Shown here: in pieces, positions 29,567 to 34,557 of the stretch | Position numbering within the stretch: position 1 is the first letter of the stretch | Layout of the letters: every line of letters begins with the position of its first letter | NCBI RefSeq assembly: GCF_030149425.1 | Contig: NZ_JASBRQ010000003.1 | Span: 1-39,060, forward strand | DNA: 39,060 bases | Direction: 5' to 3' | Source: Maricaulis sp. | GTDB taxonomy: Bacteria > Pseudomonadota > Alphaproteobacteria > Caulobacterales > Maricaulaceae | Made by a program: the position numbers and the translations under genes | The notes under the pieces: generated by a model | The model's database searches: none | The model's input: the letters and a program-made list of their open reading frames with translations, nothing else | Told to the model about the DNA's origin: nothing

Positions 29567-30787
29567 ATGTACCGCAATTACTTCACCCATCTGGAATGCT
29601 CCGCCACCGGCACGCATTACGACAAGGACCAGCCGCAAAACCTCTCCGAGGCCGGCAAGCCCCTGCTTGCGCGCTATGATTTCGAGCGCGCCAAGGGCGA
29701 GATAGATCGCGATGAAATTGCAGCGCGTGAGGGCGGCTTTTGGAAGTGGCGCGAGCTGCTGCCGGTCCGGGATGACAAGGATGTGTGCGCCCTCGGCGAG
29801 CTCGACACGCCGATGATCGATGTTCCGGCGACGGCCCGGGCAAGCGGTGCGACGGGTAAGGTCTGGGTCAAGGATGAGGGCCGTCTGCCAACGGGAAGCT
29901 TCAAGGCGCGCGGTCTCGGCCTTGCGGTCGCCATGGCGCACTCTTTCGGCATCAAGCGCATGGCCATGCCCACCAATGGCAATGCCGGGGCCGCCCTGTC
30001 GGCCTATTGCTCGCGCATGGGTATGGAAAGCTATTGTTTCGCCCCGGAAGACACGCCCGAGGTCAATCTGCGCGAGATGGCGCGGCAGGGCGCCAAGGTC
30101 TTCAAGGTCAACGGCTATATCCACCATTGCGGCGCTCTGGTCGGGGCCGGTAAGGCGGAAATGGGCTGGTTTGACGTCTCCACCCTGAAAGAACCCTACC
30201 GGATCGAGGGCAAGAAAACGATGGGGGTCGAGCTGGCCATGCAGATGGGCTGGACCTTGCCCGATGCCATCTTCTACCCGACCGGCGGCGGCACCGGCCT
30301 GATCGGCATGTGGAAGGCGTTCGACGAAATGGAACGCCTGAGCTGGATCGGGTCGGAGCGCCCGAAAATGATCGCTGTGCAGGCCGAGGGCTGTGCTCCG
30401 ATCGTGCGCGCCTGGGACAAGGGCGAAACCCACGCCGAGGAATGGCTCGAGGCCGACACCCACGCCATGGGCATCCGCGTCCCCAAGGCGATCGGCGACT
30501 TCCTCATTCTCGAGGCCTGCCGGGACAGCGGCGGTTTCGCCATGAGCGTCTCAGAGGATGAAATCCAGGCCGCCCGCGTCACCTGCGCGCAAGAAGACGG
30601 TCTCTTGCTTTGCCCGGAAGGCGCCGCCACGCTGGCCGCCATGGAAAAGGCCATGGCCAACGGCCAGATCGAACGCGATGCGGAATGCGTCCTGTTCAAT
30701 TGCGGCTCAGGCCTGAAATACGACATGCCGGAGGGGGCCAAGCCGCTGGACCGGCATGGGGAAATTGATTGGGGGAGCCTGAAATGA
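29567..30787 (+). CDS. Threonine synthase (fold type II PLP enzyme)
   Basis: A 406-residue PLP enzyme of the plant/archaeal/Thermus-type threonine synthase group, which makes threonine from O-phosphohomoserine. The PLP lysine is K113 in LPTGSFKARG, followed by MAMPTNGNAGAALSAYCSRM and the phosphate-binding YPTGGGTGLIGMWKAF. The N-terminus (YFTHLECSATGTHYDKDQPQ) matches the family's opening zinc ribbon but keeps only one Cys, so that ribbon is lost. ATG at 29567 has GAGGG just upstream; an in-frame ATG at 29531 has none. A related activity on a phospho-serine-like substrate cannot be excluded. The DUF1330 gene starts on its last codon (ATGA). Confidence 0.82.
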   Translation: MYRNYFTHLECSATGTHYDKDQPQNLSEAGKPLLARYDFERAKGEIDRDEIAAREGGFWKWRELLPVRDDKDVCALGELDTPMIDVPATARASGATGKVWVKDEGRLPTGSFKARGLGLAVAMAHSFGIKRMAMPTNGNAGAALSAYCSRMGMESYCFAPEDTPEVNLREMARQGAKVFKVNGYIHHCGALVGAGKAEMGWFDVSTLKEPYRIEGKKTMGVELAMQMGWTLPDAIFYPTGGGTGLIGMWKAFDEMERLSWIGSERPKMIAVQAEGCAPIVRAWDKGETHAEEWLEADTHAMGIRVPKAIGDFLILEACRDSGGFAMSVSEDEIQAARVTCAQEDGLLLCPEGAATLAAMEKAMANGQIERDAECVLFNCGSGLKYDMPEGAKPLDRHGEIDWGSLK

Positions 30788-31098
30788 CCGACACACCCGT
30801 CTACATCGTCGCCAACCTGCATATCGAAGACGCGGACGAATACCGCAAATATGAGAAAGGGTTCTTCCCGGTCTTCACCAAGCATGGCGGCGAGTTTGTC
30901 ACCTTTGACGACAACACCCACACCTTTGAAGGCCAGGCGCCGCGCCAGGGCCGCATGATTATCGGCAAATTCCCCAATGAGGCGGCCGCCCGGGCCTGGT
31001 ATGACGATCCGGAATACCAGGCCATCTCGGAGCACCGCCGCGCCGGCACCCAATTGCAATTCCTGACCATGGTGCATGGAATGCCAACGCGGGGATGA
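30784..31098 (+). CDS. DUF1330 family protein
   Basis: A 104-residue protein with the DUF1330 pattern (ferredoxin-like dimeric alpha-beta barrel): PVYIVANLHIEDADEYRKYE, then FFPVFTKHGGEFVTFDD, then IIGKFPNEAAARAWYDDPEY and QAISEHRRAGTQLQFLTMVHG. Function is unknown. It overlaps the threonine synthase stop by four bases, so the two are translationally coupled. The first mosaic repeat begins 11 bases after its stop. Confidence 0.88.
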   Translation: MTDTPVYIVANLHIEDADEYRKYEKGFFPVFTKHGGEFVTFDDNTHTFEGQAPRQGRMIIGKFPNEAAARAWYDDPEYQAISEHRRAGTQLQFLTMVHGMPTRG

Positions 31099-31109
31099 GC
31101 TTTTTTTTT

Positions 31110-31261
31110 GCGCCTTTGGCGCGTCACCCACTCCCCCGCTTCGCGGGACCTCGCCCATCAAGGGCGAGGAGGGAGATACATCGCCCCTCCTTCCCCTTGA
31201 TGGGGAAGGTGGCGGGCTGCGCAGCAGCACGGCGGATGGGGTGACGCGGCAAAGCCGCGTC
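31110..31261. repeat. Mosaic palindromic repeat, copy 1
   Basis: About 152 bases built of short palindromes: GCGCCTTTGGCGC (31110-31122), CCCGCTTCGCGGG (near 31134-31147), CTCGCCCATCAAGGGCGAG (near 31150-31168), CCTTCCCCTTGATGGGGAAG (near 31189-31208) and GACGCGGC-AAA-GCCGCGTC (31243-31261). Copy 2 lies at 31769 in the same orientation with over 85 percent identity by eye, apart from one insert. It starts after a run of nine T. Mosaic spacers of this kind are common in alphaproteobacteria. Confidence 0.85.
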
Positions 31262-31760: not shown

Positions 31761-31768
31761 TTTTGAGT

Positions 31769-31941
31769 GCGCCTTTGGCGCGCACCCACTCTCCCGCTTC
31801 GCGGGACCTCGCCCATCAAGGGCGAGGAGGGAGACACATCGCCCTCCTTCCCCTTGATGGGGAAGAGCCTGCCCCGGACTTGTTCCGGGGTGGCGGGCTG
31901 CGCAGCAGCACGACGGATGGGGTGCGGCGGCGAAGCCGCCA
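31769..31941. repeat. Mosaic palindromic repeat, copy 2 (with extra hairpin)
   Basis: Same order of palindromes as copy 1, with an extra 25-base insert after TTGATGGGGAAG. The insert contains CCCCGGA-CTTGT-TCCGGGG (31872-31890). The final stem differs: GGCGGC-GAA-GCCGCC (31926-31940). It starts eight bases after the secreted-protein stop. The insert resembles in style the hairpin at 34402-34420. Confidence 0.85.
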
Positions 31942-32106: not shown

Positions 32107-33405
32107 ATGATTCCCCGCTATACCCGTCCTGAAATGGCTGCGATCTGGTCGGATCAGAACAAGTACAAGATCTGGTATCTGATCGAGGCGCACGCGACGG
32201 AAAAGCTGGCGGAGCTCGGCGTGGTGCCGCAATCGGTGGTCGATGCGGTCTGGAAGGCCAAGGATGTCGAGTTTGATGTCGACCGGATCAATGAGATCGA
32301 GGCCGAGGTCAAACATGACGTCATCGCTTTCCTGACCCACCTGGCCGAGCATGTCGGTGAGGAAAGCCGCTTCGTACACCAGGGCCTGACCTCGTCGGAC
32401 GTGCTCGATACCTGCCTTGCTGTACAGATGAAACAGTCCGCCGATCTGCTCCTGGTCGCCATGGACCGGGTGCTGGCAGCGCTGAAGGCGCGCGCGGAAG
32501 AGCATAAATTCACCGTCTGCATCGGCCGCTCGCACGGCATCCATGCCGAGCCGACGACAATGGGGCTGAAGTTCGCGCGCTTCTATGCCGAGTTCAAACG
32601 CAATCGCGACCGACTGGTCGCCGCGCGGGACGAGATCGCGACCTGCGCCATTTCCGGCGCCATCGGCACCTTCGCCAATGTCGATCCGTCGGTGGAAGAA
32701 CATGTCGCCGAGCAGATGGGCCTGAGCGTCGAGCCGGTGTCGACCCAGGTCATTCCGCGCGACCGCCACGCCAATTATTTCGCCGTGCTCGGCCTGATCG
32801 CCTCGGCGATCGAGAATATCGCCGTGGAAGTGCGCCATTTGCAGCGCTCGGAAGTGCGTGAGGCCCAGGAGTATTTCTCCAAGGGTCAGAAAGGCTCCTC
32901 CGCCATGCCGCACAAGCGCAATCCGATCCTGACCGAGAACCTGACCGGCCAGGCCCGCCTGGTGCGCTCCGCCGTGGTGCCGGCGATGGAGAATGTGGCG
33001 CTCTGGCATGAGCGGGACATCTCCCACTCCTCCGTCGAGCGCGGCATCGGCCCGGACGCCAATGTCCACCTCGACTTCGCCCTGCACCGCACCGCCGGCA
33101 TGATCGAGAAGCTGATCGTGCACGAGGACCGCTGCCGCGAAAACCTGGAAGCCTATGGCGGCATCCACAATTCCCAGCGCGTCCTCCTCGCCCTCACCCA
33201 GGCCGGCGCCAGCCGCGAGGACAGCTACCGCCTGGTCCAGCGCAATGGCATGAAAACCTGGGATGAAGGCGGCAAGCTGGTCGACCATCTCAAGGCCGAT
33301 GACGGCGTCACCGCCCTGCTCTCGGACGAGCAGATCGAAGCCTGTTTCGACGAGGCCTATCACCTGAAACATGTCGACACGATTTTTGCGCGGGTATTTG
33401 GGTGA
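32107..33405 (+). CDS. purB: Adenylosuccinate lyase
   Basis: A 432-residue homotetrameric enzyme of purine synthesis that removes fumarate from SAICAR and from adenylosuccinate. Key motifs are FVHQGLTSSDVLDTCLAVQM (substrate site), IGRSHGIHAEPTTMG with the general-acid His, and the flexible signature loop KGSSAMPHKRNPILTENLTG with the catalytic Ser. The length and the bacterial short form (without an N-terminal extension) fit. ATG at 32107 follows CGGAG. It lies in the same orientation as the later pur genes but is separated from them by three plus-strand genes and one minus-strand gene. Confidence 0.96.
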   Translation: MIPRYTRPEMAAIWSDQNKYKIWYLIEAHATEKLAELGVVPQSVVDAVWKAKDVEFDVDRINEIEAEVKHDVIAFLTHLAEHVGEESRFVHQGLTSSDVLDTCLAVQMKQSADLLLVAMDRVLAALKARAEEHKFTVCIGRSHGIHAEPTTMGLKFARFYAEFKRNRDRLVAARDEIATCAISGAIGTFANVDPSVEEHVAEQMGLSVEPVSTQVIPRDRHANYFAVLGLIASAIENIAVEVRHLQRSEVREAQEYFSKGQKGSSAMPHKRNPILTENLTGQARLVRSAVVPAMENVALWHERDISHSSVERGIGPDANVHLDFALHRTAGMIEKLIVHEDRCRENLEAYGGIHNSQRVLLALTQAGASREDSYRLVQRNGMKTWDEGGKLVDHLKADDGVTALLSDEQIEACFDEAYHLKHVDTIFARVFG

Positions 33406-33443
33406 CGTGCCACCTTTCATTGCTTTTTAAGGATAGGCCATTA

Positions 33444-33470
33444 CCCTCTTCCTGACGAAAGTCAGGACCC
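33444..33470 (-). repeat. REP-like hairpin A (inverted copy, before GIY-YIG gene)
   Basis: TCCTGAC-GAAA-GTCAGGA (33450-33467) is a perfect 7-base-pair stem with a GAAA loop. Read on the minus strand the unit is GGGTCCTGACTTTCGTCAGG followed by AAGAGGGT. It matches copy B over 27 bases with one mismatch, in opposite orientation. It ends directly before the GIY-YIG start codon, and its AGGA serves as the only ribosome site near. Confidence 0.85.
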
Positions 33471-33764
33471 ATGGCGCAACAGCCTTGCACCTACATCATG
33501 GCCAGCATGAAGCGCGGCACGCTCTATATCGGCGTGACGCGGGACATTGCCATGAGGTGCTGGATGCACCGCGAGGGTAAGGGCTCAAAGTTCTGCGCCC
33601 GGTACAGGGTAAAGCGGCTCGTTCATCTTGAGTTCTTCGACCTGATGGCCGAGGCGATAGCGCGTGAGAAGCAACTGAAAAATTGGCGCCGTCAGTGGAA
33701 GATTGAGCTGATCGAGCGCGACAACCCGGATTGGAGTGATCTGTTCCTGCGGTTGAACCAATGA
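33471..33764 (+). CDS. Stand-alone GIY-YIG nuclease (URI-domain type)
   Basis: A 97-residue protein that is just one GIY-YIG domain: TYIMAS (7-12) and LYIGVTRDIAMR (18-29) form the GIY-YIG motif with Arg29 as the conserved catalytic Arg, His33 follows in WMHREGKG, and Glu66 in EAIAREKQLKNWRRQWK is the metal-binding Glu. It is of the type found as many single-domain copies in alphaproteobacterial genomes, and is related to UvrC N-terminal and homing nuclease domains. Such proteins cut DNA; the target is unknown. ATG at 33471 directly follows hairpin A, and hairpin B begins 16 bases after the stop. Its amino-acid use is Arg/Lys-rich, as usual for these. Confidence 0.88.
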   Translation: MAQQPCTYIMASMKRGTLYIGVTRDIAMRCWMHREGKGSKFCARYRVKRLVHLEFFDLMAEAIAREKQLKNWRRQWKIELIERDNPDWSDLFLRLNQ

Positions 33765-33779
33765 TCATTGCCTCATCTT

Positions 33780-33806
33780 GGGTCCTGACTTTCGTCAGGA
33801 TGAGGG
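33780..33806 (+). repeat. REP-like hairpin B (after GIY-YIG gene)
   Basis: TCCTGAC-TTTC-GTCAGGA (33783-33800), flanked by GGG and TGAGGGT. It is the inverted partner of copy A and matches copy C in the same orientation. With A it brackets the GIY-YIG gene. It lies 31 bases before the start of the next gene. Confidence 0.85.
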
Positions 33807-33837
33807 TTTTAATGCGATCAACCAGACCGAGGATTTC

Positions 33838-34392
33838 ATGGCCAAGCTTCACGACACGATCGACGATCGCATCCGCAAATTCATCGAGGCGCAGAAGATG
33901 TTCTTCGTCGCCACTGCGCCGGCGGGGAGCGCGGGTCATGTGAACATGTCGCCCAAGGGCTATGACAGTTTCCGTATCCTCGGACCGAATGAAGTCGCCT
34001 ATCTCGACCTCGGCGGGTCCGGCATCGAAACCCTCGCCCATGTGCGCGAAAACGGACGTATCACCTTCATGTTCTGCGCCTATGAAGGCGCGGCGAACAT
34101 CCTGCGCCTGTACGGCCAGGGCGAAGCGGTGACCTTCGACGAGCCGGGTTTTGAGGAGAAGCTCGCCCTCTTCCCGCAATTCCCGCATGCCCGGGCCATC
34201 ATCACCGCCAAGATCGACCGCATCCAGGACAGTTGCGGCTGGGGCGTGCCGTTTTACGAGTACAAGGGCGAGCGCGACCAGCTGGTGCGTACCAATGCCA
34301 ACCGGTCGAAGGAGGAGTGGCGCGAGAAACGCTATAAATCCAACGCGGTGTCGATCGATGGTCTCGATGGACTGGTCAAGCCGAACGTTTAA
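33838..34392 (+). CDS. Pyridoxamine 5'-phosphate oxidase family protein
   Basis: A 184-residue FMN-binding split-barrel protein. MAKLHDTIDDRIRKFIEAQK leads into FFVATAPAGSAGHVNMSPKG, then VAYLDLGGSGIETLAHVREN and GRITFMFCAYEGAANILRLY, which match the flavin-binding barrel of the PPOX-like group. Most such proteins are not pyridoxine synthesis enzymes but small flavin or F420 reductases. The C-terminus (YKSNAVSIDGLDGLVKPNV) is typical. GAGGATTTC precedes ATG 33838 as ribosome site. No cofactor specificity can be told. Confidence 0.85.
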   Translation: MAKLHDTIDDRIRKFIEAQKMFFVATAPAGSAGHVNMSPKGYDSFRILGPNEVAYLDLGGSGIETLAHVRENGRITFMFCAYEGAANILRLYGQGEAVTFDEPGFEEKLALFPQFPHARAIITAKIDRIQDSCGWGVPFYEYKGERDQLVRTNANRSKEEWREKRYKSNAVSIDGLDGLVKPNV

Positions 34393-34401
34393 ACGCCCTC
34401 A

Positions 34402-34420
34402 TCCCGGGCCTGCCCCGGGA
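34402..34420. repeat. Intergenic hairpin after the PPOX-family gene
   Basis: TCCCGGG-CCTGC-CCCGGGA, a perfect 7-base-pair stem with five-base loop, 10 bases after the stop codon. No T-run follows. It is in the style of the common alphaproteobacterial TCCCGGG spacer palindrome and of the insert in repeat copy 2 at 31872. Confidence 0.6.
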
Positions 34421-34527
34421 CCCCGGCGCGGCAATGCACCGGCTCTGACGCAAGCGTGATCACACGAGGCGGGAAATCCCAGAACGCCTGCACTATATCT
34501 GGGTAATCTGTTCCACCTCGCGCATCG

Positions 34528-34557
34528 AGGTCCTGACTTTCGTCAGAATGAGGTTTT
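34528..34557 (+). repeat. REP-like hairpin C (before thioredoxin-fold gene)
   Basis: GGTCCTGAC-TTTC-GTCAGAA followed by TGAGGTTTT, same orientation as copy B; one stem base has changed (AA for GA), giving one mismatch. Its GAGG acts as the ribosome site for the gene starting at 34559. Confidence 0.8.

Follow-up and report, generated by a model that had tools for sequence, protein, structure and literature searches.

A GIY-YIG gene enclosed by inverted hairpins

In the window, by which we mean the whole analysed stretch of 39,060 nt of Maricaulis sp. DNA, Pfam and ORF calls place a compact unit (33444..33806, no strand assigned) between purB (32107-33405) and a PNPOx-like gene that ends at 34392 and has a probable start at 33838. 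The unit opens with REP A, a CCTC-tagged REP hairpin on the forward strand (33444..33470) with its head outward and its tail facing the gene, a stem of TCCTGAC and GTCAGGA and a GAAA loop. It continues with a forward-strand gene with an ATG start (33471..33764) for a 97-residue, single-domain, UPF0213-like GIY-YIG endonuclease, a candidate REP-associated nuclease, and closes with REP B on the reverse strand (33780..33806), which is REP A inverted with one mismatch and has a loop that reads TTTC on the forward strand. REP A ends at the base immediately before the ATG and REP B begins 16 bases past the final base of the stop, placements already given in a preliminary description of this DNA and confirmed here from the sequence. 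That description had also claimed inverted 27-base hairpins around the gene, with one mismatch, 7-bp stems and GAAA/TTTC loops, and alignment of the arms and folding against shuffled sequences bear this out: the arms, inverted to each other at 33443-33471 and 33779-33807, each span 29 nt and are 97% complementary (one mismatch), and the two 7-bp stems are perfect, with equal folds in 0 of 200 and 1 of 200 shuffles.

Three copies of the 27-nt REP pattern occur in the window at three or fewer mismatches, compared with none in 100 shuffles. The third, absent from the preliminary description, is a diverged REP of the REP A type on the reverse strand (34528..34554, three mismatches). A possible REP of the TCCCGGG arm type, recognized by its likeness to dispersed REPs, lies nearby on the forward strand with a CCCTCAT head (34396..34424); its fold was matched or beaten by 52 of 200 shuffles. 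It is possible that these last two hairpins would form a heterodimeric, tails-in pair like those dispersed elsewhere in the genome. The window also holds two copies of a palindrome-rich repeat of about 160-180 bp (31102-31258 and 31761-31939), 660-680 bp apart and 92% identical in long blocks, one located 3′ of the gene at 30769-31098 and the other 5′ of purB; these are not of the CGTC type.

The window protein matches PF01541 (GIY-YIG) as its sole Pfam family, with an E-value of 1.8e-13 and 51 bits against a cut-off of 22.6, in agreement with the preliminary assignment. The catalytic site of GIY-YIG nucleases comprises two tyrosines, an arginine and a glutamate. Residues Y8, Y19, G21, R29, H33 and E66, which we take from the family to be catalytic, are all present in the window protein, and each is kept in 218 or 219 of 220 distinct, nearly full-length genes scoring at least 70 bits (Y8, Y19, R29 and E66 in 218, 218, 218 and 219, respectively). 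Across 109 gene pairs with protein identity of at least 80% and dS between 0.05 and 1.5, the median dN/dS is 0.085 and no pair reaches 1. At the level of sequence, purifying selection is acting on an intact, predicted active site.

The nuclease structure is predicted with a pLDDT of 93.7. A structure search of the PDB with this model gave no match at an E-value of 0.001; the top entry was the UPF0213 protein BH0048 (1zg2, E 0.0024), which is also the sole PDB match by sequence, followed by EF2693, N-terminal domains of UvrC, and Slx1 (rank 5, E 0.06). Four members of the group matched no NCBIfam family at an E-value of 0.001, and phage records contained no match to the nuclease. Among the plasmid records listed, those homologues that carry any annotation are named ‘GIY-YIG nuclease family protein’, ‘excinuclease ABC subunit C’ or simply hypothetical protein.

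The preliminary description had proposed counting the hairpin through the genome, and it proved not to be confined to the unit. The stem pattern TCCTGACNNNNGTCAGGA occurs at 10 places in the window's own genome, two of which adjoin the window nuclease gene, and the reversed-pattern control occurs at none. Beyond the unit, six of the eight REPs fall outside all predicted ORFs of 60 codons or more, and six of the eight have, by eye, a partner REP with a TCCCGGA or similar arm within about 80 bp. These dispersed REPs are mostly tails-in heterodimers of TCCTGAC and TCCCGGA-like hairpins, whereas the window unit contains two TCCTGAC REPs. Pfam identifies three GIY-YIG genes in this genome: the window gene, one in a UvrC-sized frame of 631 residues, and one at C27:104417 that belongs to the window gene's subfamily (110 bits to profile A1). 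The last has an inverted pair of CCCCGG hairpins, one 97 bp upstream of it and the other 4 bp downstream (score 17 with 400-bp flanks; the window unit scores 26 by the same kind of measure, defined below). In this genome, which is 94.9% complete, the two subfamily genes found thus both have hairpin flanks.

Hairpin flanks and REP types of homologous genes

Flanks were scored as the best ungapped inverted match between 200-220 bp on each side of a gene, and all other ORFs predicted in those loci, called greedily as the longest frames and not taken from annotation, served as controls. The score limits of 14 and 18 were fixed after a first look at the data and then kept throughout; flank lengths were 200 bp for the genus and named-contig sets, 220 bp for the family and phylum samples and the clade of weaker homologues, and 400 bp for C27:104417 and a closer look at weaker homologues, having been widened after the data were seen, and the allowed hairpin loop was 3-6 nt and later 4-5 nt. 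Homologues at an E-value of 1e-5 are found in 116 of 137 genomes of the window's family, with up to eight per genome when weaker relatives are included, and in many of these relatives the flanks carry hairpins of like architecture and different sequence.

At a score of at least 14, paired inverted flanks were found at 11 of 22 nuclease genes in twenty genus loci, versus 2 of 384 control ORFs, and at 65 of 104 nuclease genes in the family set, versus 6 of 935 control ORFs (three of the 935 reaching 18). The family set comprises 105 unique genes from 110 loci, including the 22 genus genes, with one gene dropped for short flanks; 30 of its loci were returned by the search and 80 were chosen non-randomly among the matches listed. 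Among named contigs, for which the best 80 of 577 places were analysed and which share at least three genes with the family set, the score was reached by 50 of 80 nuclease genes, mostly alphaproteobacterial, versus 13 of 737 controls. A phylum-wide sample, scored for nuclease genes only and with the window locus left out, gave 19 of 29. The preliminary description had suggested looking for GIY-YIG genes near such hairpins; the two subfamily genes of this genome and over half of the homologues elsewhere are so flanked. Chance was rejected as an explanation by the control ORFs of the genus, named-contig and family sets and by the window shuffles.

By record title, the flanked genes among these best 80 of 577 named-contig places number 41 of 59 in alphaproteobacteria and metagenome-assembled genomes without a class name, 3 of 10 in gammaproteobacteria, 4 of 4 in Nitrospira or Nitrospirota, and 1 of 1 in each of Planctomycetota and Bacteroidetes; at the same score none was seen in deltaproteobacteria (0/1), zetaproteobacteria (0/1), Chloroflexi (0/2) or FCPU426 (0/1). 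Inverted hairpins accompany this nuclease in many bacteria, and the window is no local oddity. Genes below the limit amount to 39 of 104 in the family set and 30 of the 80 best named-contig places, and some below it, among them L092, L093, L120 and L130, nevertheless have CGTC hairpins close by.

The usual flank motif in these best 80 of 577 places, for example CGTCATTCCCGCgaaaGCGGGAATCCAG, is that of the published CGTC REP, and 8-bp stems occur at many of the loci. Tags are CCTC in the window and mostly CGTC or TGTC at homologues. The distance from gene to REP is variable, with medians of 40 bp upstream and 26 bp downstream. A tagged REP is present on each side of 98 of 220 genes, and in 73 of these 98 the nearest REPs are inverted (54 tails-in and 19 heads-in, with 25 in direct order); among 96 successive REPs lying to one side of a gene, 57 are tails-in. 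Given the prevalence of the tails-in order, the unit resembles a REP dimer in which the gene forms the spacer.

The idea that any GIY-YIG gene attracts REPs was tried and rejected. Among weaker homologues of 40-56 bits (21 matches in 20 loci, one counted twice), hairpins flank both sides in 1 of 21 matches. Six reach a score of 14; all are from the window's class, two being weak and the other four involving a different but clear type of palindrome (CCTTCATCCTGAGCTTGTCGAAGGACGAAGG and its relatives). None of the 13 weaker-homologue loci outside that class reaches this score.

REP type and nuclease type are matched. Among 89 hairpin-bearing genes, the 7-nt inner arm diverges as protein identity drops, with a mean arm distance of 0.25 at protein identities of at least 80% and of 2.9 below 50%. 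The Spearman correlation between arm distance and protein identity is -0.31 over 3870 between-genome pairs, a value met by none of 500 shuffles of hairpin sets among same-genome paralogues. When the arm of a gene's nearest foreign homologue is compared with those of its own paralogues, the foreign arm is closer in 36 cases, farther in 13 and tied in 4. Part of this covariation is explained by linked inheritance of whole loci.

REPs and nuclease also co-occur among genomes. One CGTC REP pattern is present in 44 of 199 phylum genomes (control, 0), and profile A1 of the nuclease matches 81 of 199 at an E-value of 1e-8. A strong nuclease match, defined as a best E-value of 1e-19 or lower (a limit chosen once the E-value table was known), is found in 22 of 29 genomes with at least three REPs versus 33 of 170 others (Fisher p=5e-9). 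The corresponding counts at the level of genera are 15 of 20 versus 19 of 105, and label permutation within 12 mixed genera, of which the six with any REP are informative, gives p=1e-4. Strong matches occur in 13 of 16 genomes with at least 10 REPs, so the REPs of the unit itself do not create the co-occurrence. A second REP pattern is found in 70 of 137 genomes of the window's family (control, 0).

The exceptions run in both directions. The nuclease is present in 33 genomes with fewer than three REPs of the single pattern searched. Conversely, four REP-bearing genomes have UvrC-sized GIY-YIG genes only (G173 with 162 REPs, G189 with 48, G233 with 9 and G289 with 7), two (G326 and G137) carry small GIY-YIG genes of another kind alone, at 30-56 bits to A1, and G229 offers no more than a partial match within a frame of 250 residues. 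No flanking hairpins were found at four small GIY-YIG genes, one in G326, two in G137 and one in G213. REP-bearing genomes lacking the nuclease imply that REPs can outlast the gene or spread without it. G213 carries 718 CGTC REPs, an A1-type nuclease in broken pieces (C87:1569-1839) and the one unflanked small GIY-YIG gene, and was counted among the strong-match genomes despite the broken match; a burst of REPs followed by loss of the enzyme is one possible history.

Other GIY-YIG genes are associated with other palindromes. Weaker homologues of this kind are represented in 9 of 77 genomes of the window's class, and of the 14 unique genes of their clade that have flanks on both sides, seven score at least 14, two of these seven with CGTC-like or other motifs. 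In a second alphaproteobacterial clade, GIY-YIG genes at L263 (4968-5198), L262, L264, L311 (the same as L255) and L312 lie between inverted repeats of the CTTCGA...CTCAGGATGA type, likely a parallel pairing of enzyme and palindrome. The GIY-YIG homologue at L239 is flanked by inverted GTCATTGCGAGGAGCGAAGCGACG(A/C)(A/G)GCAATCCAGTCC, a palindrome that may have a GIY-YIG partner of its own.

Unit ends and occupied, REP-only and empty sites

The ends of the unit are best seen in two copies at different sites, one in Bradyrhizobium sp. (L086) and one in G306 (L237), a genome probably of the same genus, which are 92.6% identical over 584 bp. Their homology sets in at the GTC tag of the outermost REP on the left; on the right it runs past the GACG tag of the outermost REP by about 25 bases that match poorly. 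The flanks beyond the unit, about 1.2 kb on each side, gave no blastn match at an E-value of 1e-3. The two proteins are identical in the part compared, with a dS of 0.11. Homology also halts near the gene in many other locus pairs, the ends having been read closely in this pair only. These alignments place the boundaries of the unit at the outer REPs, and REP-gene-REP behaves as a unit.

The preliminary description had proposed comparing syntenic loci in relatives, and sister species differ in the manner it envisaged: at the window's purB site the unit, REPs only, or neither is present, and three further sites vary. Among 17 purB loci from 16 of 19 genomes, the unit is found in G000 and G072, and G071 has the REPs of G072 with the gene partly deleted. 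The closest sister, G075, whose neighbour proteins are 97-98% identical, has a single REP; G073 has two inverted REPs and no gene; both loci of G074 have a 48-bp gap without a hairpin; and the remaining 10 loci have neither the unit nor such REPs, with other palindromes in some.

At the intergenic site occupied in G306, 60 genomes were searched and 57 matched, and among the best 30 loci the unit is present in eight (in G385 as gene matches in two pieces). Another GIY-YIG gene (56%) occupies the site in one; REPs of the same arm without the gene are found in four (G371, G390, G372 and G366); G383 has no hairpin and a REP-like right end; two have no right neighbour within 1.5 kb; and 14 lack both the gene and that REP arm, several of them carrying palindromes of other kinds. 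The unit of Azospirillum lipoferum 4B, which has a REP pair to either side, stands between sufB and sufC, two genes that are adjacent in relatives; the corresponding gap in A. ramasamyi, A. oryzae and strain B510 is 87-129 bp, without a CGTC REP (B510 has another palindrome). The absence of CGTC REPs from these three aligned relatives implies that REPs and gene were gained or lost together there. In Sphingobium, the unit adjoins fnrL in TomMM7A and TomTYG46, and the site has no CGTC REP in TomTYG72 and TomTYG65. By eye, no clear target-site duplication is visible at the Azospirillum and Sphingobium junctions, and the intergenic flanks of the purB site are too diverged for one to be read.

At the same fnrL site, TomTYG64 (L339) and TomTYG74 (L338) have a single palindrome (at about 1130-1165) with a head tag at both ends, diverged in TomTYG74. 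Such a double-headed palindrome is consistent with a deletion across direct repeats in the two stems, or with a site targeted by insertion, and the REP of G075 at the purB site is perhaps another. In a scan of 1.8 Mb, hairpins were called head-tail in 247 cases and head-head in 26, the latter appearing on inspection to be wrongly classified head-tail hairpins or products of chance. In Maricaulis maris, REPs with GCAC and GAAA loops recur every 213 bp beside a nuclease gene (G063:C1:54990-55872; L041/L059), which suggests local tandem growth of a REP pair.

A candidate partner enzyme for CGTC REPs

CGTC-tagged REPs form one of the two large superfamilies of REPs, described without a dedicated transposase and with a CGTC, TGTC or CCTC tag, a stem of 8-9 bp, a loop of 4-5 nt and a CCA-like tail (main text of Di Nocera et al., 2013, PMC3733652). 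The REPs described here share the tag, loop length, CCA-like tail, inverted dimers and alphaproteobacterial bias of that superfamily. The window REP agrees in its unpaired CCTC tag, its 4-nt loop and its CCCA tail, with a stem of 7 bp versus the published 8-9 bp, and is repeated in its genome in mostly intergenic places, often with a partner REP. No dedicated transposase is reported for CGTC REPs in that main text, in which ‘GIY’ does not occur, whereas here a GIY-YIG gene lies between the REPs. A link between GIY-YIG genes and REPs was likewise not found in the open-access literature, as covered by titles and the beginnings of abstracts (a scope that excludes subscription papers and preprints), nor in the parts of PMC10928387 and PMC12306157 consulted, and in the consulted part of PMC9465073 GIY-YIG is merely an entry in a gene table. 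With respect to these sources, what is new is the GIY-YIG partner; the REPs themselves and their missing transposase are known (PMC3733652, main text).

The closest parallel is the system of GTAG REPs and REPINs with their RAYT (TnpA-REP) enzymes, in which a single enzyme gene likewise lies between inverted REPs, REP type is paired to enzyme type, gene-less REP pairs are scattered, and an unpaired tag stands on one side of the stem (features described in part in PMC3733652). The RAYT enzyme is an HUH/Y1 tyrosine transposase and its REPs are GTAG-tagged, whereas the window gene belongs to PF01541 and its REPs, like those of homologues, are CCTC- or CGTC-tagged; the GIY-YIG units, moreover, have several homologues per genome and vary in presence among sister species.

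UPF0213 proteins such as BH0048 resemble the window protein in fold and size and are not known to have a repeat partner. Homing endonucleases, including I-TevI and free-standing enzymes, are small GIY-YIG nucleases carried by mobile units; by comparison, the window protein is a single domain of 97 residues, bounded by hairpins, and intergenic, with no intron seen. Slx1, which cuts branched DNA in a structure-selective manner, matches in fold, and the window protein is single-domain with cutting that is only predicted.

We consider it probable that the window contains one copy of a REP-GIY-YIG-REP element whose nuclease is the dedicated partner of CGTC REPs and mobilises them, as RAYT does for GTAG REPs. 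This reading draws on an association of gene and hairpin far above that at controls, on matched REP and nuclease types, unit ends and site variation, and on purifying selection, and on these grounds the GIY-YIG gene is a strong candidate for the enzyme, so far lacking, by which CGTC REPs are spread. The preliminary suggestion of a REP-associated nuclease unit is thereby supported, as the REPs of the genome itself, the flanks of homologues and the variable sites all fit it. The enzyme would recognise the REP hairpin, either as a cruciform or on single-stranded DNA, and would cut at or near the stem or the tag; repair or replication might then copy either the unit in full or a REP pair lacking the gene, such as the REPIN-like dimers scattered through the genome, to a new site, usually an intergenic one. 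Where the gene was lost from between its REPs, possibly via the direct repeats inherent in palindromic stems, REP-only scars would remain.

It is conceivable, although we regard it as unlikely, that nothing is mobilised and that the hairpins belong, as regulatory or structural elements, to a resident nuclease gene that serves the host, the upstream one perhaps controlling translation, the downstream one ending or stabilising the mRNA, and the nuclease trimming REP cruciforms. Hairpin A does reach the last base before the ATG in the window, the nuclease is under purifying selection, and some sister-species copies (L040 and L042) seem to have been inherited in place, as they have an upstream REP pair in common and 93% protein identity (a sequence likeness rather than synteny). 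Caulobacter crescentus, moreover, is reported to possess three small genes of COG2827, of which one bears an SOS box (consulted part of PMC1839093). However, fixed parts of a host gene would not readily account for REPs at varying distances from it, highly similar units at different sites, a gene present or absent at single sites among relatives, or as many as eight homologues per genome, weaker relatives included.

A role for CGTC REP dimers as mere landing pads, with the nuclease gene entering pre-existing pairs by homing-like cutting or through another enzyme and the REPs spreading otherwise, is quite improbable in our estimation. Relatives with gene-less REPs at a site that elsewhere holds the unit (G073 and G075; G371, G390, G372 and G366), the existence of REP populations without the gene, and the reported insertion of the IS ISPpu9 into REPs (consulted part of PMC8450116) would all suit such a history, but the CGTC REP is absent from the site in three aligned Azospirillum relatives, the homology between L086 and L237 extends to the outer REPs, and REP type tracks nuclease type. 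As for an abundant repeat meeting variable intergenic space by coincidence, a hairpin of some kind does lie beside 268 of 935 control ORFs, but paired inverted flanks are about 100-fold rarer at those ORFs (6/935 vs 65/104) and distant GIY-YIG genes are hairpin-flanked on both sides in 1 of 21 matches; the control ORFs already refute this account, to which we give almost no credence.

The proposed partnership of nuclease and REP makes the question testable with a protein of 97 residues and a hairpin of 27 nt. If true, it would add a second enzyme chemistry for the spread of hairpin repeats in bacteria. The chances seem to us about even for a broader proposal, in which the single-domain GIY-YIG nuclease is the transposition enzyme of CGTC REPs and related clades drive other abundant alphaproteobacterial palindromes, such as those of the CTTCGA...CTCAGGATGA and GTCATTGCGAGGAGCGAAGCGAC types. 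If that were true, much of the repeat load of alphaproteobacteria would derive from a second, independent class of REP enzyme with a non-HUH chemistry.
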